A stretch of 64,000 bases of DNA, from assembly GCF_001584725.1 (NCBI RefSeq), contig NZ_CP014606.1, positions 62,001-126,000 of the forward strand. The letters run 5' to 3'. This document shows positions 23,134-64,000 of the stretch, piece by piece; positions within the stretch are counted from its first letter, which is position 1, and every line of letters starts with the position of its first letter. The notes beneath the pieces are model-generated. The model was not told the origin of the DNA. It saw only the letters and a list, made by a program, of their open reading frames with translations, and ran no database searches. A program made the translations under genes and the position numbers. The DNA comes from an endosymbiont 'TC1' of Trimyema compressum (GTDB lineage Bacteria; Bacillota; TC1).

Positions 23134-23290
23134 ACTCATTTTTTAACATTCAAATAAATACGATTAACAATCGCTAGCTTCTTACACAAAGCCATTCTCC
23201 TTTTCAAACACGGAAGGCTCCATCGTTTCCCATGAAACCCATAGTCTACTTACCATTTGCATGCGCAATTAGGTAAAAATAGATTGGATA
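23134..23290 (-). ncRNA. Candidate riboswitch or structured leader upstream of FecCD permease
   Basis: On the minus strand the segment is closed by CAATC (about 23285) and GATTG (about 23167). Inside are a hairpin GTTTC-ATGG-GAAAC and a second helix AAACGATGGAGCCTTCCGTGTTT. It is GC-richer than its surroundings and ends at a terminator before the gene, the usual layout of an OFF riboswitch. I could not match it with certainty to a class; a molybdenum-cofactor/tungsten-type or metal-sensing RNA is possible given the transporter type and the molybdoenzyme in this window. It lacks the cobalamin B12 box as I know it. Confidence 0.4.
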
Positions 23291-23462
23291 ATTGTGGATT
23301 GCCACTAATCGATTAAAGTATAACATTCTTAACAATATTATGCAATTAAATCATATTGTACAAAGAGAAAAAATAATCTTTTGTATTAGCATATTTAAGG
23401 GAAATAAGAAGAAATTTCTTTACATAATTTTTAATAATTGCTATACTGTTTAAGGAACGTTT

Positions 23463-23556
23463 GGAGAAGTGGCCGGAGTGGCTGAAGGCGTTCGCCTGGA
23501 AAGCGGATATATGGTTTATAGCTGTATCGAGGGTTCGAATCCCTCCTTCTCCGCCA
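23463..23556 (+). tRNA. tRNA-Ser (anticodon GGA)
   Basis: Class II tRNA of 94 bases. Acceptor GGAGAAG pairs with CTTCTCC; the anticodon loop is CTGGAAA; a long variable arm and TTCGAAT T-loop are present; discriminator G and CCA are encoded. Its 3' end is the left attachment site of the following element. Confidence 0.95.
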
Positions 23557-52076: not shown

Positions 52077-53451
52077 TTATACAGGGTAATTGTAAAATTG
52101 ACAAAGGTACTTATGAATGATTTTTAGTATAGCGTCTTCCCTTTTTTGGCTGCCGCCTTTAGTTTTTCTTCTTTGTTTTTTATTTCTTCTCCAAATGCAT
52201 ATTATTATACATACCAGTATTATTAAAACAGCTGCAATTAAAAGCATTAATTGAAAAGATGAAAGCTCACTAATAAACTCAATAAGAGAAAATGGTGCAG
52301 CTACAAAAGCCACATTTGGGGGGCTTCATGGCCTGGTAAGTATTGTCTTTCTAAATTTGTTTTTACTTTGTTACTCTCAAGAGTTAGTGGAATATCTTGA
52401 TTTTTTGGTACACAATCCCAAAAATCCTCTTCTGTTATAATTTTTTGTTCATTGATGATATGTTTACCTTTAGGTAAAATCATTTTATATTCATATTCAG
52501 CAAAGGCTTTTTCCATAATAGCATTACCAATTAAATGACGAATATCTTCACCTGCTTGATCTTCCCATGTTGAGACGCCTAAGACAATTTCTACTAGCCT
52601 AGTATCGCCACGTTTAGCAGTTGATGAATAGTTAAAACCTTTTAAGGCAGAACCTGTTTTTATGCCATCTGTTCCTTTCAAACCATATTTAGCACCCTCA
52701 AGGGAATGCTGATAGGTATCAAATTTTTCTTCAAAATGGGTTCCTTTTTTAACCACAATATTGGGAGATTTAGTGTGATTTAATAAATCGGGATAGTTTT
52801 TAACAAGATAAGTGCATAACAGAGCATAATCTGAAGCACAAGTCATGTTATCATTAGTTAGAGATTGATTAGTTGGTTGATAAGGGGTTAATATTTATTA
52901 ATAACACCAATAGTAGCGTTATAGTATGTGGTGTTAGTCATTCCTAAAGCAGTTGCTTTCTCATTTAAAAGAGCCGCATATTTATCTGGATTGGGTTCAA
53001 TTAAATCAGCAAGCATATAAGTAGCAGCTGCAGAAGAAGGCACAATAATTAAATCAATTAGTTCACTTACTGTATAGCTTGCTCCTGGCAAAATCTTGTT
53101 ATTACTTAGCGAGTGGCGACTGGAAATATCTAAATGTTTTTTATTGGCAGCTACGACTGTATTTATGTTAAATTTTCCTGCTCCAATAGCCTCATAAGCT
53201 AGCAACAGAGTCATTAGCTTTGACATACTTGCTGGAGGCAATAGTTTATTGGCATTTTCCTGCCAAAGGATTTGTCCTGTGTTTATTTCAGTAATAATAG
53301 AGCCGGCAGGTTGATATTTTTCTTCAAGTTTAAATCCTTTTTCTCTGGCAACATCAATAGCTCTTTCAGCTTTTAGAGGTGTGGCTGGGATTATGGCTAT
53401 CAGTGCCACAAAGATTATAATTAGCCAATTTTTAAATATTTTTTGCTTCAT
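52077..53451 (-). pseudogene. D-alanyl-D-alanine carboxypeptidase (PBP5/DacF-like), frameshifted
   Basis: Trims peptidoglycan stem peptides outside the membrane. ATG 53451; signal peptide IIIFVALIAIIPATPLKA. SxxK motif is ASMSKL (about residue 75). The second motif, usually SxN, reads PSSAAATY, so the Asn is absent. KTG motif DGIKTGSALKGF is present in the second piece (52301-52846). A frameshift near 52890 and another near 52315 split the gene. The C-terminal piece contains a membrane helix (FQLMLLIAAVLIILVCIIICIW) with a basic tail. About 450 residues. Confidence 0.85.
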
Positions 53452-53646: not shown

Positions 53647-53675
53647 TTGACATATAAATAAGAACAGTGTAGTAT
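53647..53675 (+). promoter_or_regulatory. Promoter of aromatic amino-acid operon
   Basis: TTGACA (53647-53652), 17-base spacer, TAGTAT (53670-53675). Transcription should start near 53682, about 29 bases before the leader peptide. Confidence 0.75.
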
Positions 53676-53710
53676 TATAGTGTCGAAGACTATAGTAAGG
53701 TGGTTGCATT

Positions 53711-53800
53711 ATGAATCAAGTAAAATCAATCACAACTCAATACTTTTATTTTAGTGGCGTAGGCTATTTTTTTAGCTTAGGTCAAATTTTAATGAAATAA
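53711..53800 (+). CDS. Leader peptide of aromatic amino-acid operon (Phe/Tyr attenuator)
   Basis: A 29-codon peptide, ATG 53711 to TAA 53800, with AAGGTGG 8-14 bases before it. Eight of its 29 residues are Phe or Tyr, in two clusters: YFYF (residues 11-14) and YFF (19-21). It is followed after 57 bases by an intrinsic terminator and then by the DAHP synthase gene. Ribosome stalling at Phe/Tyr codons would control the terminator, as in the E. coli pheA leader. The peptide should have no function beyond its translation. Confidence 0.8.
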   Translation: MNQVKSITTQYFYFSGVGYFFSLGQILMK

Positions 53801-53857
53801 ATATAGTATTGATTAGAGTCGGAGAATAAGAATATAAAAATGTAAAGTTGTAGTGGT

Positions 53858-53884
53858 AGAGACTCTTTTAAGAGTCTCTTTTTT
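53858..53884 (+). terminator. Attenuator terminator
   Basis: AGAGACTCTT pairs with AAGAGTCTCT (2-base loop) followed by T6. The segment AGAGTC at about 53816-53821 can instead pair with GACTCT (53861-53866), giving a possible antiterminator. Confidence 0.85.
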
Positions 53885-53913
53885 ATGCTTTAAAGAAAAT
53901 TGGAGGAATGAAA

Positions 53914-54930
53914 ATGATTATTGTTTTTAAGCTAGGTACTAACGAGGAAACCCTAGGAAAAGTCAAAGAACTTGTTGAAAAGCAAGGCATTGAAGTAAGT
54001 GTTACAAAAGGCGCACAACAAACTATTTTTGGTTTAATAGGTGATACTAGTACTATTAATATTGGTCAACTTGAAATGAATGATGCTGTTGAGAAAGTAA
54101 TGAAAATTCAAGAACCTTTCAAAAAAGCTAATAGAGCTTTTCATCCGGCTGACTCTGTAATCAATATTGATGGACAAAAAATAGGGGGCGGTCATTTTAC
54201 AATTATAGCAGGACCCTGTGCTATTGAAAGTGAAGAACAGTTTATGACCATTGCTAAAGCAGTCAAAGAAGGTGGTGCAAATTTCTTAAGAGGTGGTGCC
54301 TTTAAGCCAAGAACATCCCCTTACAGTTTCCAAGGATTAGGAAAAAAAGGTATTGAGATTATGGAAATGGCAAAAAAAGAAACAGGCTTACCAATCATTA
54401 CTGAAATGATGTCTGCAAAGCAAGTTGAAAAATTTGGTGATAGAGTTGATGTAATTCAAATTGGGGCACGTAATATGCAGAACTTTGATCTTCTAAAAGA
54501 AGTTGGAAAGTCAAAAACTCCTGTTCTTTTAAAAAGAGGACTATGTGCTACTTATGAAGAGTTTTTGATGGCAGCTGAATACATTATGGCTGGTGGTAAT
54601 GAAAATGTAGTTTTTTGTGAGAGAGGGATTCGTACTTTTGAAAGCTGGACAAGAAATACTTTAGATGTAAGTGCAGTTCCAGTTATTAGGAGAAAAAGTC
54701 ATCTGCCAATTGTTATTGATCCAAGTCATGCTGGCGGTATTAACTGGTTAGTAGAACCACTCTCAAGAGCTGCTGCTGCCATTGGTGCAGACGGTATTAC
54801 TGTGGAGGTTCATAATAATCCAGAAGAAGCTATGAGCGATGGACAACAATCATTATTACCTGAAACTTTTGCTAAAATGGTAGATAAAATTAATGTGTTA
54901 CGTAAAGTAATGTCAGAGATCGATGGATAA
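53914..54930 (+). CDS. aroF: 3-deoxy-7-phosphoheptulonate (DAHP) synthase
   Basis: First step of the shikimate pathway: PEP plus erythrose 4-phosphate. Residues 1-70 form the ferredoxin-like domain (MIIVFKLGTNEE) seen in type I-beta enzymes and 90-335 the TIM barrel with AGPCAIESEEQ, GGAFKPRTSPYSFQG, LKRG and DPSHAGG. 338 residues. The ATG at 53914 is preferred over 53908: GGAGG at 53902-53906 lies 7 bases from the former but only 1 from the latter. Such enzymes are often feedback-controlled via the N-terminal domain. It heads the operon behind the attenuator and its end overlaps tyrA by 8 bases. Confidence 0.95.
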   Translation: MIIVFKLGTNEETLGKVKELVEKQGIEVSVTKGAQQTIFGLIGDTSTINIGQLEMNDAVEKVMKIQEPFKKANRAFHPADSVINIDGQKIGGGHFTIIAGPCAIESEEQFMTIAKAVKEGGANFLRGGAFKPRTSPYSFQGLGKKGIEIMEMAKKETGLPIITEMMSAKQVEKFGDRVDVIQIGARNMQNFDLLKEVGKSKTPVLLKRGLCATYEEFLMAAEYIMAGGNENVVFCERGIRTFESWTRNTLDVSAVPVIRRKSHLPIVIDPSHAGGINWLVEPLSRAAAAIGADGITVEVHNNPEEAMSDGQQSLLPETFAKMVDKINVLRKVMSEIDG

Positions 54931-55756
54931 AAAGATAGGAATTGTTGGGTTAGGGCTCATTGGTGGTTCCGTAGCACTCAGCCTTAAAGGCAAGGTGACA
55001 AAAATAGTCGGCGTAGATACTAATGAAGAAAGCCTTAGACTAGGACTAGAAAGAGGCGTAATTGTAAAAGGGTCTACAAACCCAGAAATATTAAGAGAAG
55101 TAGATATTGTTATTTTAGCACTCTATCCCAAAGCTATCTTATCTTTTTTACGAAAACATAAACATATTTTGAATCATAAGCAACTGATTATTGATGTTGG
55201 TGGTATAAAAAAAGGAGTTGTAGCTGAAGCTCAAGCTATTTTAGGTGAAGGGGTTGAGTTTCTAGGAACACATCCTATGGCAGGAAGAGAGGGAAGTGGT
55301 TTTTTAAAAGCTAGAGAAGAGCTTTTTCTCGGCTCCAATTTTATTATTACCCCTACAGAAAGAAACGGGAAGGCCTCTATACACTTAATAGAAAAATTAG
55401 GCTATTTATTAGGTGCAAGCGCTTGTTATGAGCTATCTCCAGAACTTCATGATCAGCTTATTTCTCATACAAGCCATTTGCCTCATATTATGGCCTGTGC
55501 CTATATTAGCAATTATCTTAAGGACAGTGACAAAATTATTGGGGGTAGCTTTAGAGATGTTACTCGAGTTGCCAAAATTAATGAGAATCTTTGGAGTGAA
55601 CTTTTTTTAGCCAATAAAGAAGAGAATATTAAGGAGATTGAGCATTTAATTTTACGTTTAGATGAATTGAAAAATTATATTGAATTAGATGATGAAGAAA
55701 ACATCAGAATCTTTTTAAGAAAAGCTCGAGAGATTAAGGAAGGATTAGACCAGTGA
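54923..55756 (+). CDS. tyrA: Prephenate dehydrogenase
   Basis: NAD-dependent oxidation of prephenate to 4-hydroxyphenylpyruvate for tyrosine. 277 residues: Rossmann motif GIVGLGLIGGSVAL (residues 5-18), VDVG-type loop LIIDVGGIKKG, THPMAGRE (substrate contact) and HDQLISHTSHLPHIMA. There is no C-terminal ACT domain, so allosteric tyrosine control by ACT is not expected. ATG overlaps the aroF end (ATGGATAA), and its TGA overlaps the aroB GTG. Confidence 0.95.
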   Translation: MDKKIGIVGLGLIGGSVALSLKGKVTKIVGVDTNEESLRLGLERGVIVKGSTNPEILREVDIVILALYPKAILSFLRKHKHILNHKQLIIDVGGIKKGVVAEAQAILGEGVEFLGTHPMAGREGSGFLKAREELFLGSNFIITPTERNGKASIHLIEKLGYLLGASACYELSPELHDQLISHTSHLPHIMACAYISNYLKDSDKIIGGSFRDVTRVAKINENLWSELFLANKEENIKEIEHLILRLDELKNYIELDDEENIRIFLRKAREIKEGLDQ

Positions 55757-56829
55757 GACTAGAAGTAAACCTAGGTATAAATAGTTATGGTATTACAATA
55801 GAAAAGAATAGCCTTAAAAATTTAGGCGAGAAAGTAAAGTCTGTTTTTAAAGGTGAGAAAATTGCTATGATTACAGATGAAAATGTAAATGGCTTTTATG
55901 GGCAGCTCGTAGAGCAGTCTTTAGTAGATGCAGGTTTTTTTGTAGAGAAGTTGGTTTTACCACATGGTGAAAAAACCAAGACTCTAGATAGTGCCATTAT
56001 TCTATATAATAAAATGTTGGCGGCAGGCATCAGTCGAAAAGATTTAGTAATAACTTTAGGCGGTGGTGTTATTGGTGATTTAGGTGGTTTTGTAGCAGCT
56101 ACCTATTTAAGAGGCATTGATTTTATTCAGGTGCCAACTAGCCTACTTGCTCAAATTGATTCCAGTGTAGGTGGTAAGGTTGGGATAGATTTACCAGCGG
56201 GGAAAAATTTAGTAGGTGCTTTTCATCAACCAAAAGCAGTTTTTATTGATAGTAGTACACTAGATACCCTTCCTACTAAGTTTTTTATTGATGGCATGGG
56301 AGAAGCAGTTAAGTATGGTGCTATTTTTGATAAAGATTTATTTGAACTAATGAAAAAAAATAGCTATAGGAAAGAAAACTTTGATTTTTTAGATATGGAT
56401 GAACTAATTGAACGCTGTTGCTTTTGGAAGAAAACAGTAGTTGAAGAAGATGAAAAAGAAGCTGGCAGAAGAGCGCTTTTGAATTTTGGTCATACATTTG
56501 CTCATGGCATAGAAAAAATGGAAGGATATGAAGGCTATACTCATGGAGAAGCGGTAGCTATTGGGATGTGTACTATTACTAAGGGCAGTGAAGCTTTAGG
56601 TTTAACTAAACAAGGAACCTATGACTCTTTAAAGGAACTTGTTGTTTCCTTAGGCCTACCAAGTGTTTTTTCAGCTGAAAAAAAAGAGGCTGTTTTAGAG
56701 GCTTTATGGTATGATAAGAAGGTAGTTGGTTCTCATATAAATCTTATTTTACTAAAAGAAATAGGGATAAGTTATATGCAGGAAATGACTAAGGAACAAG
56801 TTGAAGAAATATTAAGTAAAGGATTGTAG
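55753..56829 (+). CDS. aroB: 3-dehydroquinate synthase
   Basis: Second shikimate step. 358 residues with the NAD-binding GGGVIGDLGGFVAATYLRG, PTSLLAQIDSSVGGKVGIDLPAGKN (substrate phosphate and metal region), GEAVKYGAI and the zinc ligand His in NFGHTFAHGIEK and YTHGEAVAIGM. GTG start overlaps the tyrA stop by four bases (GTGA), indicating translational coupling. Confidence 0.96.
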   Translation: MRLEVNLGINSYGITIEKNSLKNLGEKVKSVFKGEKIAMITDENVNGFYGQLVEQSLVDAGFFVEKLVLPHGEKTKTLDSAIILYNKMLAAGISRKDLVITLGGGVIGDLGGFVAATYLRGIDFIQVPTSLLAQIDSSVGGKVGIDLPAGKNLVGAFHQPKAVFIDSSTLDTLPTKFFIDGMGEAVKYGAIFDKDLFELMKKNSYRKENFDFLDMDELIERCCFWKKTVVEEDEKEAGRRALLNFGHTFAHGIEKMEGYEGYTHGEAVAIGMCTITKGSEALGLTKQGTYDSLKELVVSLGLPSVFSAEKKEAVLEALWYDKKVVGSHINLILLKEIGISYMQEMTKEQVEEILSKGL

Positions 56830-56836
56830 AAGAGAG

Positions 56837-58132
56837 ATGAAAAGTAAGATCACATTATTACCTAGCCAATTAGAAGGCGGTGTTACCATTCCACCATCTA
56901 AAAGCCTTGCTCATCGCTATTTAATTGGAGCAGCGCTAAGTGAGGGTCAGAGCTTTATAGAAAATATTGCTAAGTCAGTTGACATTGTAAGTACTATTAA
57001 TGCCCTTCAAGGTATGGGGGTTTTATTTTTAGAAGAACCTATAAATGATAATATTAGCAATTATGTAGTTAAAGGTGTAAGACGCCCCCTTGTTTCAGGC
57101 AATGGTATTTTTGATTGTGCTGAATCTGGTTCTACTCTTAGATTCTTAATTCCTCTCCTTCTACTAACAGGAGAGGAAACTACTGTAATTGGTAGAGGTA
57201 AACTTGTTGAAAGACCGTTAGATGTCTATTACGAGCTTTTTGATTTGAAAGAGATTGACTATCAAAAAAATCAAGGGTTGTTACCTTTAAATCTTAAAGG
57301 TAACCTGATTGGTGGAATATATCCAATAAGGGGAAATGTAAGTTCTCAGTTTATAACTGGACTTCTTTATGCACTGCCTTTAGTGGCTGAAGATTCCGAA
57401 ATTATTTTGACAACACCTTTAGAATCTAAGCCTTATGTTGATTTAACATTAGCTGTTTTGAAAGATTATGGAATTGAAATTAATGTGGCTGCTGATTACA
57501 TCAGTTTTAAAATAAAAGGTGGGCAGGAATATAAAAGTGGTACCCATAGAGTTGAAGGGGATTATTCACAAGTAGCTTTTTATGCAGTTGGTGCAGTGAT
57601 TGGCAAAAAGCCAATTACTTGTTATGGATTAAAAGAGGATTCACTACAAGGAGACAAGGCCATTTTATCAATTATTGAAGCAATGGGTGGCTCCTTAGAA
57701 CAACGACAGGAAGCAATTGTTTTTTATCCCTCTAAAACAAAAGGGATTACCATTGATGTTACAGAATGCCCAGATTTAGTACCGGCTTTAACCTTGCTAG
57801 GGACATTAAGTGAGGGAATTACTCACATTATAGGTGCTGAAAGACTGAAGATTAAAGAGTCAAACCGCTTAGAATCCTCTGCTAGTGAACTGAATAAGTT
57901 AGGTGGAGAGATTATCGTTGAGTCTGAAGGATTACTGATTAAAGGGGTTCCTAATCTAGGTGGCAATGTTGTGGTTGAAAGTTGGAATGACCATAGAATT
58001 GCTATGACACTTGCTATGGCAACCCAGAGAATAGAACACCCAATAACGTTAAAAGGATGGGAAAGTGTAGAGAAATCTTATCCGAATTTTTGGGAAGACT
58101 ATAAAATGTTAGGAGGCACTGTTAATGAATAG
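56837..58132 (+). CDS. aroA: 3-phosphoshikimate 1-carboxyvinyltransferase (EPSP synthase)
   Basis: Adds PEP to shikimate 3-phosphate. 431 residues: PPSKSLAHRYLIGAAL (substrate Lys-Ser), ESGSTLRFLIPL, GNVSSQFITGLLYALP, and ERLKIKESNRLESSASELNKLGG. ATG 56837, seven bases after aroB, follows AGAAGAGAG. Its end overlaps aroC by eight bases. Confidence 0.95.
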   Translation: MKSKITLLPSQLEGGVTIPPSKSLAHRYLIGAALSEGQSFIENIAKSVDIVSTINALQGMGVLFLEEPINDNISNYVVKGVRRPLVSGNGIFDCAESGSTLRFLIPLLLLTGEETTVIGRGKLVERPLDVYYELFDLKEIDYQKNQGLLPLNLKGNLIGGIYPIRGNVSSQFITGLLYALPLVAEDSEIILTTPLESKPYVDLTLAVLKDYGIEINVAADYISFKIKGGQEYKSGTHRVEGDYSQVAFYAVGAVIGKKPITCYGLKEDSLQGDKAILSIIEAMGGSLEQRQEAIVFYPSKTKGITIDVTECPDLVPALTLLGTLSEGITHIIGAERLKIKESNRLESSASELNKLGGEIIVESEGLLIKGVPNLGGNVVVESWNDHRIAMTLAMATQRIEHPITLKGWESVEKSYPNFWEDYKMLGGTVNE

Positions 58133-59228
58133 CGTTTATACTGGCAATATTACCTTGTCTTTATTTGGAGAATCCCATGGTAAAACTATTGGTATTGTTA
58201 TGGATGGTTTACCGCCAGGATTTAAAATTGATGAAAATTATATTAAGTTAGAAATGAATCGTCGAAAACCAGGACAAAATAAAATGAGTACACCGAGAAA
58301 AGAGTCTGATTCAGCGGAAATTGTCAGTGGTCTTTTTAATGGGTGTACTACAGGGGCACCGTTGTGTGGTCTTATTTATACGGGCGATACAAAAAGTAAG
58401 GATTATGGTGAATTAGTTGAAAAGATGAGACCAGGACATAGTGATTATTCAGGTGCCATCCATTATAGAAACCATAATGATTACCGAGGTGGCGGTCATT
58501 TTTCTGGACGTTTAACAGCACCACTTGTATTTGCTGGAAGCATCTGCAAACAATATTTAAGAGACATGGGTATTACAATTGGTTCTCATATTCTAAAAAT
58601 ACATAATGTAGAGGATAGATCTTTTCTGATGGAAGATTTAACTCAAGAAAAATTAGAATTATTAAGACATAAAACATTACCAGTTATAGCAGATTCAGAT
58701 TCTCTTGGTGTAGAAGAGAGAATGGAAGCTTGTATCTTAGAGGCTAGAAAGGAAAAAGATTCAGTAGGTGGTATTGTTGAATGTGTGGCTATTGGATTAC
58801 CGGCTGGATGGGGAAATCCATTTTTTCATTCAATAGAGAGTGAAATGGCTAGTCTTTTATTTTCTATTCCGGCTGTTAAAGGCGTCAGTTTTGGAGCTGG
58901 TTTTGAAATAGTAGATTTATTTGGTTCAGAAGCAAATGATGCTTTTCAAATGGAAAACAATAGCATTGTTACAAAAACCAACCACAATGGAGGTATTCTC
59001 GGTGGTATTACTAATGGCATGCCTATCATTTGCAAAGTTGCCATTAAGCCTACACCTTCAATTAGCAAGGCTCAAGAGACGATTAATCGAGTAACAATGG
59101 AAAATACGATATTAACTATTGAAGGACGACATGATTCTTGTATTATTCCAAGAGCAATTCCAGTTGTCGAAAGTGCAGTTGCAATTACTTTGTTTAATGC
59201 CTATTTGGAGGATAAAAAATGGAGTTAG
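58125..59228 (+). CDS. aroC: Chorismate synthase
   Basis: Last shikimate step, needs reduced FMN. 367 residues with GESHGKTIGIVMDGLPPG, RRKPGQNKMSTPRKESD, RPGHSDYSGAIHYRNHNDYRGGGHFSGRLTAP and GGILGGITNGMPI. ATG 58125 lies after AGGAGGCACT. The end overlaps pheA by 10 bases. Confidence 0.96.
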   Translation: MNSVYTGNITLSLFGESHGKTIGIVMDGLPPGFKIDENYIKLEMNRRKPGQNKMSTPRKESDSAEIVSGLFNGCTTGAPLCGLIYTGDTKSKDYGELVEKMRPGHSDYSGAIHYRNHNDYRGGGHFSGRLTAPLVFAGSICKQYLRDMGITIGSHILKIHNVEDRSFLMEDLTQEKLELLRHKTLPVIADSDSLGVEERMEACILEARKEKDSVGGIVECVAIGLPAGWGNPFFHSIESEMASLLFSIPAVKGVSFGAGFEIVDLFGSEANDAFQMENNSIVTKTNHNGGILGGITNGMPIICKVAIKPTPSISKAQETINRVTMENTILTIEGRHDSCIIPRAIPVVESAVAITLFNAYLEDKKWS

Positions 59229-60361
59229 ATTTAAATGAAATAAGGAAAACAATTGATGAAACAGATGAAAAATTAGTAGCCCTTTTTGAGAAAAGAATGG
59301 GTTTGGCAAGTCGAGTTGCCACCTATAAAAAAGAAAGAAATCTTCCTATTCTGGATTCTAAAAGAGAAGAAATGGTTACTGAAAAAAATGTTCTTCACTT
59401 ATCTAATAAAGAATATGCCCCCTATTTAGAAGATTTTTTAAAACAGCTCATGCAAATAAGTCGTTCTTATCAGAGCACCCTATTAGTTAATGAAGCCACA
59501 ACTTGGCAATCTGTTTTAGGCAATCTTCCAGTTTCAGAAGTTACTAAAAACCCTAAAGTTGGTTATAGTGGTACGGTTGGTTCTTATGGAGAAATGGCTG
59601 CTTTAGATTATTTTAGAGATAGTCAACCTATTTGTTATCAGACATTTGAGGAAGTTGTTAATGGGGTTTTAGATGGCAGTCTTGATTATGGTGTAATTCC
59701 TTTAGAAAACACATCAAGTGGCGGTGTGTTAGATGCGGTGCGCTTGCTTGAAAAATCACCTGTTTATATTGTAGGTGAAGCAGCAGTAGCTGCAGAACAC
59801 TGTTTGTTAGGTATAGGCACAATTGATGAAATTAAAACTATCTATTCTCATGTCCAGTGCTTTTTACAATGTAGCGAATATTTAAAGGATAAACCTTGGC
59901 ATCAAGTTCCCTATTTTAATACAGCTATTAGTGCTGCTTATGTTAAAGAAAGGAAGGATCCATCTAAAGCTGCAATTGCTAGTAAACGGGCAGCAGAAGT
60001 TTATGGTTTAAAGGTGCTAAAAGAAAATATTTATCATAATAAAAAGAATTATACGCGATTTGGTATTATTAAAAAATCAATGGAAGTATCAGATGAGGCT
60101 AATAAAATTAGTATTGATTTTGTTTTAGATGATAAGCAAGGTTCTCTTCACCCTATTATTAAAACCATTGCAGAACATCATTTAAATATAATGAAAATTG
60201 AGTCTAAGCCAATGTTGGGAACACCTTGGGAATATGTCTTTTTTATTGATTTTTCCGGTAATTTAAGAGATAATGAAGTCAAAAGAGCTTTACTTGAAAT
60301 TAAGGAAAATAGTAAGGAATTTCATTTCAAGGGAAATTATATTGAAAATACAGGGGGATAA
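59219..60361 (+). CDS. pheA: Bifunctional chorismate mutase/prephenate dehydratase
   Basis: Makes phenylpyruvate from chorismate. 380 residues in three parts: AroQ-type chorismate mutase (residues 1-85: LNEIRKTIDETDEKLVALFEKRMGLASRVATYK), prephenate dehydratase (about 105-280: GYSGTVGSYGEMAAL, PLENTSSGGV, SHVQCFLQC, NYTRFGII with the TRF motif) and an ACT domain (about 295-375: GSLHPIIKTIAEHHLNIMKIESKP). The ESRP motif of the Phe-binding site reads ESKP, a conservative change. The gene starts within the aroC end. Confidence 0.95.
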   Translation: MELDLNEIRKTIDETDEKLVALFEKRMGLASRVATYKKERNLPILDSKREEMVTEKNVLHLSNKEYAPYLEDFLKQLMQISRSYQSTLLVNEATTWQSVLGNLPVSEVTKNPKVGYSGTVGSYGEMAALDYFRDSQPICYQTFEEVVNGVLDGSLDYGVIPLENTSSGGVLDAVRLLEKSPVYIVGEAAVAAEHCLLGIGTIDEIKTIYSHVQCFLQCSEYLKDKPWHQVPYFNTAISAAYVKERKDPSKAAIASKRAAEVYGLKVLKENIYHNKKNYTRFGIIKKSMEVSDEANKISIDFVLDDKQGSLHPIIKTIAEHHLNIMKIESKPMLGTPWEYVFFIDFSGNLRDNEVKRALLEIKENSKEFHFKGNYIENTGG

Positions 60362-61070: not shown

Positions 61071-61967
61071 ATGATTAACTATAAACATTTGTTGGCATTT
61101 GTAACTGTCGTAAGAAAAAAGAGTTTTACAGGCGCAGCCAAAGAACTCTATATGACTCAGCCTGCAATTAGCTGGCAGATTAAAAACTTGGAAAATGAAA
61201 TTGACTTGGTTTTGATTGAACGCAAAGAAAGAGGCACTAAACTCACTGAAGCAGGCAAGCAATTTTATATGTATGCTGAAAAGATTATTAAAGCTCATGA
61301 ACAATTAATTGAGGAAATGAAACAACTTAAATGTATGGAAAAAGGTAGACTTTTAGTAGGAGCTAGTACTGTGCCTGGAGAATACATTTTACCAGCCTAT
61401 ATGAGTCGCTTTAAAGAAGCCTATCCATTAGCAGATGTTTTTGTTTCAACAGGACCATCGGAAAATATTGGTGAACAATTACTAAGTGAGGATATTCATA
61501 TTGGGGTTGTAGGTGCTAAACTTGAAGATAGTCGTATTGAGTCTACAGCGTTTAAAAAGGATAAGGTTATTCTTGTTGCAAGTACCGATCATCTTTTAAC
61601 TGAATTAGAAGAAGTAACTCTAGAGGATGTAGTTAAATACCCGCTGGTGCTTAGAGAACGTGGCTCTGGTGTTAGAAGAACTATAGAAGAGACTTTAGAT
61701 AAACATAACTATAAATTGCACCATTTCCCATATTATGTTGAACTGAGTGGCAGTAGAGCAGGGATTACAGCTGTAAAGAATTCCAATGCTGTTGCTTGGG
61801 TATCGAGTATTGTTGCTAGGGATAGTATAGTTTTAAATGAAATTAAGGAAATACCAATTAAATATGTTGATTTAAACCGACAAATATATTTGATACATCA
61901 TAAAATTAAAACACTGAGTCCTTTAAGTGAAACTTTTTTAAATTTTATGCTAAAACAGAAGGATTGA
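61071..61967 (+). CDS. LysR-family transcriptional regulator
   Basis: 298 residues: N-terminal helix-turn-helix (NYKHLLAFVTVVRKKSFTGAAKELYMTQPAISWQIKNLENEI) and a periplasmic-binding-like effector domain (MEKGRLLVGASTVPGEYILPAYM). The effector domain resembles the CysL/YwfM-like group with the GASTxPxEYxLP pattern. ATG 61071 follows GGAAAGGTGTAATATT. It stands alone after the aro operon and overlaps the next gene by four bases, so it may share a message with the QueG-like gene. Target genes and ligand are unknown. Confidence 0.9.
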   Translation: MINYKHLLAFVTVVRKKSFTGAAKELYMTQPAISWQIKNLENEIDLVLIERKERGTKLTEAGKQFYMYAEKIIKAHEQLIEEMKQLKCMEKGRLLVGASTVPGEYILPAYMSRFKEAYPLADVFVSTGPSENIGEQLLSEDIHIGVVGAKLEDSRIESTAFKKDKVILVASTDHLLTELEEVTLEDVVKYPLVLRERGSGVRRTIEETLDKHNYKLHHFPYYVELSGSRAGITAVKNSNAVAWVSSIVARDSIVLNEIKEIPIKYVDLNRQIYLIHHKIKTLSPLSETFLNFMLKQKD

Positions 61968-62659
61968 AAATGGAAAACTTAAATAAGTATTATGAAATAA
62001 TTGCTAAAAATAATGGGGCTACTCTATTTGGAGTAGCCAATCTTTTACCTGCAAAAGAATATATTAAAGAAAATTATGATCCTCGATATTTAAATTTAGA
62101 TAAAGCCATTGTTTTAGGGGTTCCTTATCCAAAGGAAATTGTAAATGAATTAGCCCAAGGGCCTACTCATACTTATCTTTATTATTATAAAATTTTAAAT
62201 ACAAAGCTTGATGACCTAGCATTACAAATAGCTATTCATTTAGAAGCGGAAGAGGTCATTGTTCCTTTCCTATACCTGCATCGCAAAGAGTAACTGATAG
62301 CCGTCTAAATGGTATTTTTCTCACCGGTTAGCTGCTCATTTGGCTGGTTTAGGTTGGATTGGAAAAATGCTTCACTAATTACAAAAGAATATGGTCCTAG
62401 ACTTCGTTTAGTAACTATTCTTACTTATGCACAATTACTTTGCAATGAGCCTTTTGAAGGAGATTATTGTGGAAACTGTACTGCTTGTCAAGAGGCCTGT
62501 CCATCAGGCGCAATTCTAGGCGCCTCTTTTAAGGCTACTGATTCTCTTGAAAAACGGTTTATTGGAGAACGCTGCGATGTTCATTTAAGTAAAGTTAGAA
62601 ATACATTTGAGAAACGTATATGTGGTAAGTGTTTAAGTGTTTGTCCCCATGGAAGATAG
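61964..62659 (+). pseudogene. QueG-like 4Fe-4S protein (epoxyqueuosine reductase family), frameshifted
   Basis: Fe-S protein related to QueG. N-terminal part to about 62270 reads YYEIIAKNNGATLFGVANLLPAKEYI and AIVLGVPYPKEIV. Frame changes near 62270 and 62330 separate it from [30 protein letters not shown], then two ferredoxin motifs: CGNCTACQEACP and CGKCLSVCP. It ends at TAG 62659. The length, 230 codons, is shorter than QueG (about 310), fitting the smaller QueG-like group whose role is unclear. It overlaps lysR by four bases. Confidence 0.75.
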
Positions 62660-62671
62660 GAGTTATGTGAA

Positions 62672-64000
62672 ATGGAATATACCAAAAAGAATGTTTGGGA
62701 TGAAGTTGAAGATAAAAATTCAATTTTTAAATTTAGTAAAGGCTACTTATCTTTCTTGACAGCTGTAAAAACTGAAAGAGAAGCAGTTAATTATTTAGAA
62801 GAAGAAGCAAAAAAAGAAATTATGTTGATTTAAAGACCGTAGATAAATTGCTAGAAAATCAACCTTTTTATTTTAATCATAGAAATAAATCCTTTTTTTA
62901 TGGGAACTATTTCTGGCTTGCTTAAAGAGGGAATGCATTTTCTTGGTGCTCATATTGATGCACCAAGATTAGACATTAAAAGTCAGCTTTTATATGAAGA
63001 AGAAGGTGTTGCTTTGTTTAAAACCCACTATTATGGTGGTATTAAAAAATATCAGTGGGTTACAATGCCTCTATCTCTTCATGGCGTAGTTTACAAAAAG
63101 ATGGTTCAAAAGTTACTGTTGCAATCGGTCATAGAAATACTGATCCAGTATTTACTATTACAGATTTATTTCCTCACTTAGCTAGAACACAAATACAAGA
63201 AACTATGGAGAAGGGAATTAAGGGTGAACAACTCAATGTTTTAGTTGGCAGTATGCCTGTTGAAAAAAGCCAAGAATAAAGAAGAAAAGGTAGAATAAAG
63301 AAATTAATATTAGACTATTTAGGAAAAGAATATGGCATAGAAGAAGATTTTTTAAGAAGTGAATTAGAAATTGTACCAGCATTTACACCGAGAGATGTTG
63401 GTTTGGATAGAAGTATGGTTGGTGCCTATGGACAAGACGACAGGGTTTGTTCTTATACATTAATGGAAAGTTTGTTTGAATCTAAGTCTCTTAAAAAATC
63501 TGTGCTAGCTTGTTTTTTGATAAAGAAGAAATTGGCAGCAGTGGTGATACAGGGGCTAAATCAAGAGTTTTAGAGTATCTTGTCACTTTATTAATTGAGA
63601 AAATAGGAGAAAAAGTTGCTCCTCTAGAGGTTTTATATAATTCAAAGGCCTTGTCTTCAGATGTTAGTGCTTGCGATGATCCAAGTTATCCAGGCGCTTT
63701 TGATAACTATAACAAGGCAACTATTGGTAATGGTGTTGTTATTTCAAAATATACAGGCTCAGGTGGTAAATACGATGCTAACGATGCCAGTGCAGAATAT
63801 GTAGCTGAAATAATGTCTATTTTAGATAAACATAACGTTATTTACCAGTTTGGAGAATTAGGAAAAGTTGATGAAGGTGGCGGTGGAACTATTGCTCAAT
63901 ATCTATCAGAACTAGGAATGGAAATTATATATATATTGGAACTGGTTTACTGAGTATGCATTCACCATTTGAAATTGCTTCAAAAGGCGATATTTATATG
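62672..64000 (+). pseudogene. M18-family aminopeptidase, frameshifted, right edge
   Basis: Zinc aminopeptidase. ATG 62672 follows AGGAGTTATGTGA. The pieces are FSKGYLSFLTAVKTEREAV; MGTISGLLKEGMHFLGAHIDAPRLDIK (zinc-binding His-x-Asp) and YYGGIKKYQW; VGAYGQDDRVCSYTLMESL; FFDKEEIGSSGDTGAKS (catalytic Glu pair); then FGELGKVDEGGGGTIAQYLSELGMEII and MHSPFEIASK near the edge. Frame changes fall near 62830, 63100, 63280, 63515 and 63935. Relatives have about 430-460 residues, so nearly the whole gene is here. Order fits M18 with five breaks. Confidence 0.82.

Follow-up and report, generated by a model that had tools for sequence, protein, structure and literature searches.

How synthesis of Phe and Tyr is adjusted in the endosymbiont 'TC1' of Trimyema compressum is the question raised by the region (53647-53914) that precedes the first gene of its aromatic amino acid operon. 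The region lies in a window of 64,000 nucleotides, the whole stretch of DNA that was analysed and to which all positions refer, and a sequence-only reading had proposed a Phe/Tyr leader-peptide attenuator. As judged from the comparisons described below, the locus very probably encodes a ribosome-mediated transcription attenuator, to which the charging of tRNA-Phe and of tRNA-Tyr serves as the signal.

The operon and its leader region

The operon on the forward strand was identified by NCBIfam matches. It encodes a DAHP synthase of the aroF type (TIGR01361/NF006421; 53908-54930), prephenate dehydrogenase (tyrA; 54923-55756), 3-dehydroquinate synthase (aroB; 55753-56829), EPSP synthase (aroA; 56837-58132), chorismate synthase (aroC; 58125-59228), and chorismate mutase/prephenate dehydratase (pheA; 59219-60361). 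This gene content agrees with the earlier claim that the products are Phe and Tyr, and, given that the operon makes both amino acids, the mixed Phe/Tyr codons of the leader fit.

All parts of the leader region are on the same strand. The promoter is present as had been claimed, with TTGACA (53647-53652) and TAGTAT (53670-53675) separated by a 17-nt spacer. It is followed by the ribosome-binding site AGGTGG (53698-53703), at the position of which relatives carry AAGG or GAGG, and by the leader peptide gene MNQVKSITTQYFYFSGVGYFFSLGQILMK (53711-53800), which encodes the expected 29 residues and has orthologues in relatives. The two aromatic clusters were correctly placed at residues 11-14 and 19-21, but they hold seven Phe/Tyr codons (Y11, F12, Y13, F14, Y19, F20, and F21) and not eight; Trp codons are absent. 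The intrinsic terminator, AGAGACTCT-TTTA-AGAGTCTCT with its T-run (53858-53884), was likewise found, with a stem of 9 bp (53858-53879) in place of the 10 bp reported earlier; the six T residues that end at 53884 include the last base of the stem. The left arm of this hairpin doubles as the 3' arm of the antiterminator. The DAHP synthase gene has its own GGAGG (53902-53906), as claimed, about 20 nt after the terminator and outside it, with the ATG at 53908. In the window and its family relatives L093 to L096, a short stem seems to pair the leader Shine-Dalgarno sequence (AGGTTG/AGGTGG) with conserved ACAACT codons (53698-53737); on folding grounds, re-initiation at the leader might be restricted by such a stem.

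Taken singly, some of these parts carry little weight. Promoter-like sites are as frequent in shuffled sequence (4 found versus 4.6 expected), and at least 7 aromatic residues in 12 codons occur in 2 of the 305 small ORFs of the window that have a ribosome-binding site. One terminator was found against 0.3 expected by chance. When orthologues are compared, the combination of parts is, on this sequence evidence, far beyond chance. Neither the promoter nor the terminator can belong to the upstream gene, since that gene is on the opposite strand. It encodes a dac/PBP4-like D-Ala-D-Ala carboxypeptidase (52301-53451, reverse strand) and is divided between two ORFs, one matching the first half of a single profile and the other the second half; judged from this match, the split is a frameshift, either real or from the assembly.

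Some further features of the window were recorded. A LysR regulator (61071-61967, forward strand) scores above the cut-off of the selenium-metabolism-associated family NF040786. Close to the right end (61964-63953, forward strand), more genes are broken, with one fragment of a QueG-like reductase and several of an M18 aminopeptidase in separate ORFs, which suggests that genes are decaying here or that the sequence contains indel errors. A molybdenum/tungsten cofactor riboswitch (23183-23301, reverse strand; 64.5 bits) adjoins a tRNA-Ser(GGA) gene (23463-23556).

Conservation among family and order relatives

A search with the 29-residue peptide alone returned its own copy as the sole confident match, and relatives were therefore reached via DAHP synthase, which is present in 8 of the 10 order genomes examined, including that of the window. 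The enzyme shares 73-74% identity with that of the window in four other family members and 64-66% in three order-level relatives. In all seven, promoter, ribosome-binding site, leader, terminator, and gene follow each other in the same order. A sigma-70-type promoter, with a match of up to 12/12, is located 30-36 nt upstream of the leader ATG at each orthologous locus, the leaders are 25-30 residues long and contain YFYY or YFFYF plus a further cluster of aromatic residues, and every DAHP synthase gene is preceded by a terminator. The sequence-only reading had called for a comparison of this kind, and the reading frame and its Phe/Tyr clusters were found to be kept in 4 of 4 family members and 3 of 3 order-level relatives, while both peptide and DNA drift. 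The absence of the small frame or of its Phe/Tyr codons, set beforehand as the observation that would speak against an attenuator, was seen in none of these relatives.

Alternative RNA structures of the leader

Folding of the leader with its terminator removed yielded two structures that recur across the family. The first, the protector stem P1, pairs the first aromatic cluster (region 1; 53739-53754) with a segment that spans the stop codon and extends just beyond it (region 2; 53790-53810). The second, hairpin P2 (UAGGCUA-UUUUUU-UAGCUUA; 53760-53779), surrounds the second cluster, and in the orthologous hairpins both sides have changed in 3 of 6 pairs. Compared with dinucleotide shuffles, P1 is significant in the window (p=0.010) and in L093 (0.012), L094 (0.008), L095 (0.038), L096 (0.002), and L097 (0.002); in L098 (p=0.36) and L099 (p=0.16), which are f2 relatives, it does not reach significance. 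On the eight-sequence alignment, 83.6% of the P1 and P2 cells are paired, versus 41-55% in slid registers, and 15 two-sided changes were counted against a shuffle mean of 6.5. The covariation score was reached by none of 500 shuffles, in a test in which relatedness among the sequences remains.

The antiterminator arm AGAGTC, formerly placed near 53816, occupies 53815-53820 and pairs as proposed with GACTCT (53861-53866) in the left arm of the terminator. In L093, L094, and L096, the terminator is altered to GAGAAGGCTC, and GAGTCT or GGGTCT still pairs with the changed GGCTC arm. The terminator and antiterminator alternatives fold as had been proposed, and they covary. A search of the relatives L097 to L099 returned no clear antiterminator. 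That of the window comprises 6 bp at -8.5 kcal/mol, and roughly one in eight shuffled sequences offers an arm as good as this (single-locus p=0.12). As it is weaker than the terminator, at about -13 kcal/mol, it would have to act kinetically, and it must matter which arm is synthesized first. When a ribosome was simulated as stalled on either cluster, AGAGTC paired with GACTCT in the free RNA of the window, and with the ribosome at the stop codon the terminator became the favoured fold; L094 to L096 behaved in the same way. AGAGTC starts 15 nt past the stop codon, at the edge of the ribosome footprint, a position that was counted against the mechanism.

The mechanism proposed from these elements is as follows. 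RNA polymerase would start near 53682 and a ribosome would begin the 29-codon leader. When Phe and Tyr are plentiful, this ribosome is expected to reach the stop codon, beside or on the antiterminator arm, and the terminator (53858-53884) would then form and keep the operon off by the predicted termination. When Phe or Tyr is scarce, the ribosome is predicted to stall in either aromatic cluster and would cover region 1 or open P2, so that P1 could not form. AGAGTC would then pair with the left arm of the terminator before the right arm is made, and the predicted outcome of starvation is readthrough into aroF-tyrA-aroB-aroA-aroC-pheA, which would constitute the response to Phe and Tyr. Should no ribosome be on the leader, the first cluster would be held in P1 by the region of the stop codon, and formation of the terminator would be the default.

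Leaders upstream of DAHP synthase in a wider sample

The 450 bp located 5' of the same type of DAHP synthase were surveyed at 169 loci. The detector called for a ribosome-binding site, an ORF of 12-60 codons with at least five Phe, Tyr, or Trp residues in twelve codons, and a terminator thereafter. An aromatic-rich leader with terminator was present in 76 of the 169 regions (about 45%), as compared with 1 of 507 shuffled regions (three shuffles each) and none of 169 reverse strands, and only a handful of the sampled regions contain a T-box. The earlier statement that such a leader would be uncommon in low-GC Firmicutes is consequently wrong for DAHP synthase; to judge from the sampled regions, an aromatic leader before this gene is common in Clostridia. 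Matches amount to 26 of the 31 loci nearest to the gene of the window (84%) and 44 of 78 loci in named genomes, whereas only 6 of 60 were obtained for DAHP synthases that are more distant. Among the named holders are Clostridium, Clostridioides difficile, Candidatus Epulonipiscium, and Oscillibacter relatives, together with MAGs labelled Fusobacteriaceae and Spirochaetaceae. The 75 distinct leaders range from 16 to 60 residues; Phe is present in all 75, Tyr in 73, and Trp in 43, and Phe and Tyr make up 16% and 11% of their residues, respectively.

A leader-peptide profile built from 14 leaders was used for a blind search of 200 genomes of the phylum. Nine matches were obtained at E < 1e-7, all of them upstream of DAHP synthase and two at loci outside the upstream survey. 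Two weak matches (E > 1e-4), L192 within a germination-like gene and L193, were judged false. Other leader motifs, namely, CYYYFYFSTGYFW and SFTFTYGWTRFSGFGYF (L105-L107, L017/L022/L023/L035), also precede DAHP synthase, and these distinct types suggest repeated remodelling of the attenuator.

Antiterminators and constraint on the RNA

Across this set, the stretch that separates the terminator from the last aromatic cluster usually contains a segment complementary to the left arm of the terminator. The sequences of the paired arms differ among lineages: TAATGAGT:ACTCATTA in Clostridium, GGTTTGGCTG:CAGCCGAAC in the Oscillibacter relatives, and elsewhere CCAGTGAGG:TCTCACTGG, CGTACGGGTA:TACCCGTA, AGTGGAAGTC:GACTTCCAC, and others. 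Counting the fixed TAATGAGT:ACTCATTA register over mixed lineages proved too crude, 28 of 1000 swaps being as good, and was replaced by a permutation test of duplex energies. The duplexes of each arm with its own terminator sum to -984 kcal/mol, as opposed to -727 +/- 22 kcal/mol for permuted terminators (none of 10,000 permutations did as well; z of about -11.6; same result in the AT-rich and GC-richer subsets), and, with dinucleotide shuffles as the reference, 28 of 75 antiterminators reach significance at 0.05, where 3.75 would be expected (binomial 1e-17); both statistics ignore kinship, and relatedness inflates the figures. Despite this relatedness, selection is argued for by the fact that several unrelated arm solutions share the same geometry.

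Since the last codons often contain the arm, the RNA accounts for some of the peptide sequence that is shared, and the endings FGLAE or SNE coincide with the antiterminator arm. The Ser codon AGC is used in 82 of 101 cases after Phe or Tyr versus 41 of 145 elsewhere, a preference that, on the codon counts, is a mark of constraint on the RNA. Leaders of different lineages (L018-L125) repeatedly contain the nucleotides TTTTAGC (Phe-Ser); this motif may in part reflect small hairpins and in part something else, such as a polymerase pause signal.

Other possible routes of control

Three other readings were weighed against attenuation. That the small ORF is incidental and the operon is governed by another RNA route, be it a T-box or riboswitch or an RNA to which a protein binds, is very unlikely. 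The genome of the window does use T-boxes, with seven matches to the T-box model RF00230, and at L014, L020, and L067 a T-box takes the place of the leader upstream of DAHP synthase. However, RF00230 does not match at the leader, no Rfam family was found there, and relaxation to E <= 10 gave only implausible matches far below the cut-offs; the conserved element is the reading frame and its aromatic codons, and the RNA sequence that carries it is unrelated in many lineages.

Control by the leader at the level of translation, through arrest by the nascent peptide or a hidden aroF ribosome-binding site, is highly improbable. In favour of an arrest peptide, some non-aromatic residues are conserved (WG..FSAG in Clostridium; TT ahead of the first cluster), and the short stem described above could cover the leader's own Shine-Dalgarno sequence. 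Against this, the aroF GGAGG lies clear of the terminator hairpin, and a strong terminator with T-run has been kept in all orthologues. The idea that the ORF encodes a small hydrophobic protein with a function of its own, such as a membrane peptide, with the terminator merely marking its 3' end, is scarcely credible, as the hydrophobic leaders, some sharing WGFYFSAG, and their good ribosome-binding sites are outweighed by a terminator arm that covaries with the 3' coding and stop region, by shared peptide parts (the AGC bias, FGLAE/SNE) dictated by the RNA, and by the wide variation in peptide length.

Relation to known attenuators

The preferred reading, ribosome-mediated attenuation, can be compared with classical systems. 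A short ORF with a ribosome-binding site and clustered codons for the product is present here, as are a promoter of its own and a terminator between the leader and the first structural gene. An antiterminator exclusive with the terminator is supported set-wide by the permutation test, L093, L094, and L096 keeping it with changes, and a protector (1:2) stem links the cognate codons to the stop-proximal region, although it is weak in L098 and L099. The likeness to enteric pheA and trp attenuators noted earlier holds, and the parts are kept in the same order in seven relatives. As in enteric pheL-pheA and trpL, the succession is promoter, short leader with clustered cognate codons, protector, antiterminator, terminator, and biosynthetic operon (general knowledge; PMC9413887, PMC10953045). 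In contrast to pheL and trpL, the leader of the window would govern the first shikimate enzyme together with tyrA and pheA, has mixed Phe and Tyr codons, and belongs to a low-GC, clostridia-like host. The Rfam models Phe_leader and Trp_leader gave no match to it at gathering or at E <= 10, and NCBIfam has no family for the peptide. T-boxes (RF00230) also serve amino acid genes and respond to tRNA charging by termination, but there the tRNA is sensed directly by the RNA, without a reading frame.

In the open-access literature, the closest report is the uORFC-13-1 motif upstream of aroF, described from 24 sequences of Acholeplasma and environmental DNA only (PMC8632094); prior mention in Clostridia is possible. 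The motif likewise combines the DAHP synthase gene with a terminator and a small ORF upstream, of which at least one codon specifies Phe, whereas its text, the basis of this comparison, describes no Tyr cluster or antiterminator. Leader peptides of Firmicutes are known for His, namely, those of hisZ/hisS* in the Bacillus cereus group and of his operons in Peptostreptococcaceae and Erysipelotrichales, and for Leu, that of ilv-leu in Staphylococcus aureus (PMC2965389, PMC9413887, PMC5794164). In these cases, too, ribosome-mediated attenuation replaces T-boxes or repressors within the same broad bacterial group, but they serve other amino acids and operons, each in few lineages.

Implications

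Clostridia are often regarded as a group that makes little use of leader-peptide control. Ribosome-mediated attenuation requires that polymerase and the first ribosome remain close together. According to a review (PMC10953045), the polymerase of Bacillus subtilis runs ahead of the ribosomes, and all Firmicutes are predicted to share this behaviour; such uncoupling, if true of the organism of the window, would blunt the attenuator. On balance, we consider it probable that the leaders form a class-wide, largely undescribed Phe/Tyr attenuator family on DAHP synthase across Clostridia, in which lineage-specific antiterminators dictate parts of the peptide. If so, polymerase and ribosome would have to move together along these leaders, contrary to the view that Firmicutes are generally uncoupled, and a conserved attenuator on the aromatic gateway enzyme of many Clostridia would offer a direct native test of that generalisation. 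Such a family would also provide a ready rule for annotating many small ORFs that now lack annotation, and metabolic engineering in Clostridia would gain a natural sensor of Phe and Tyr.
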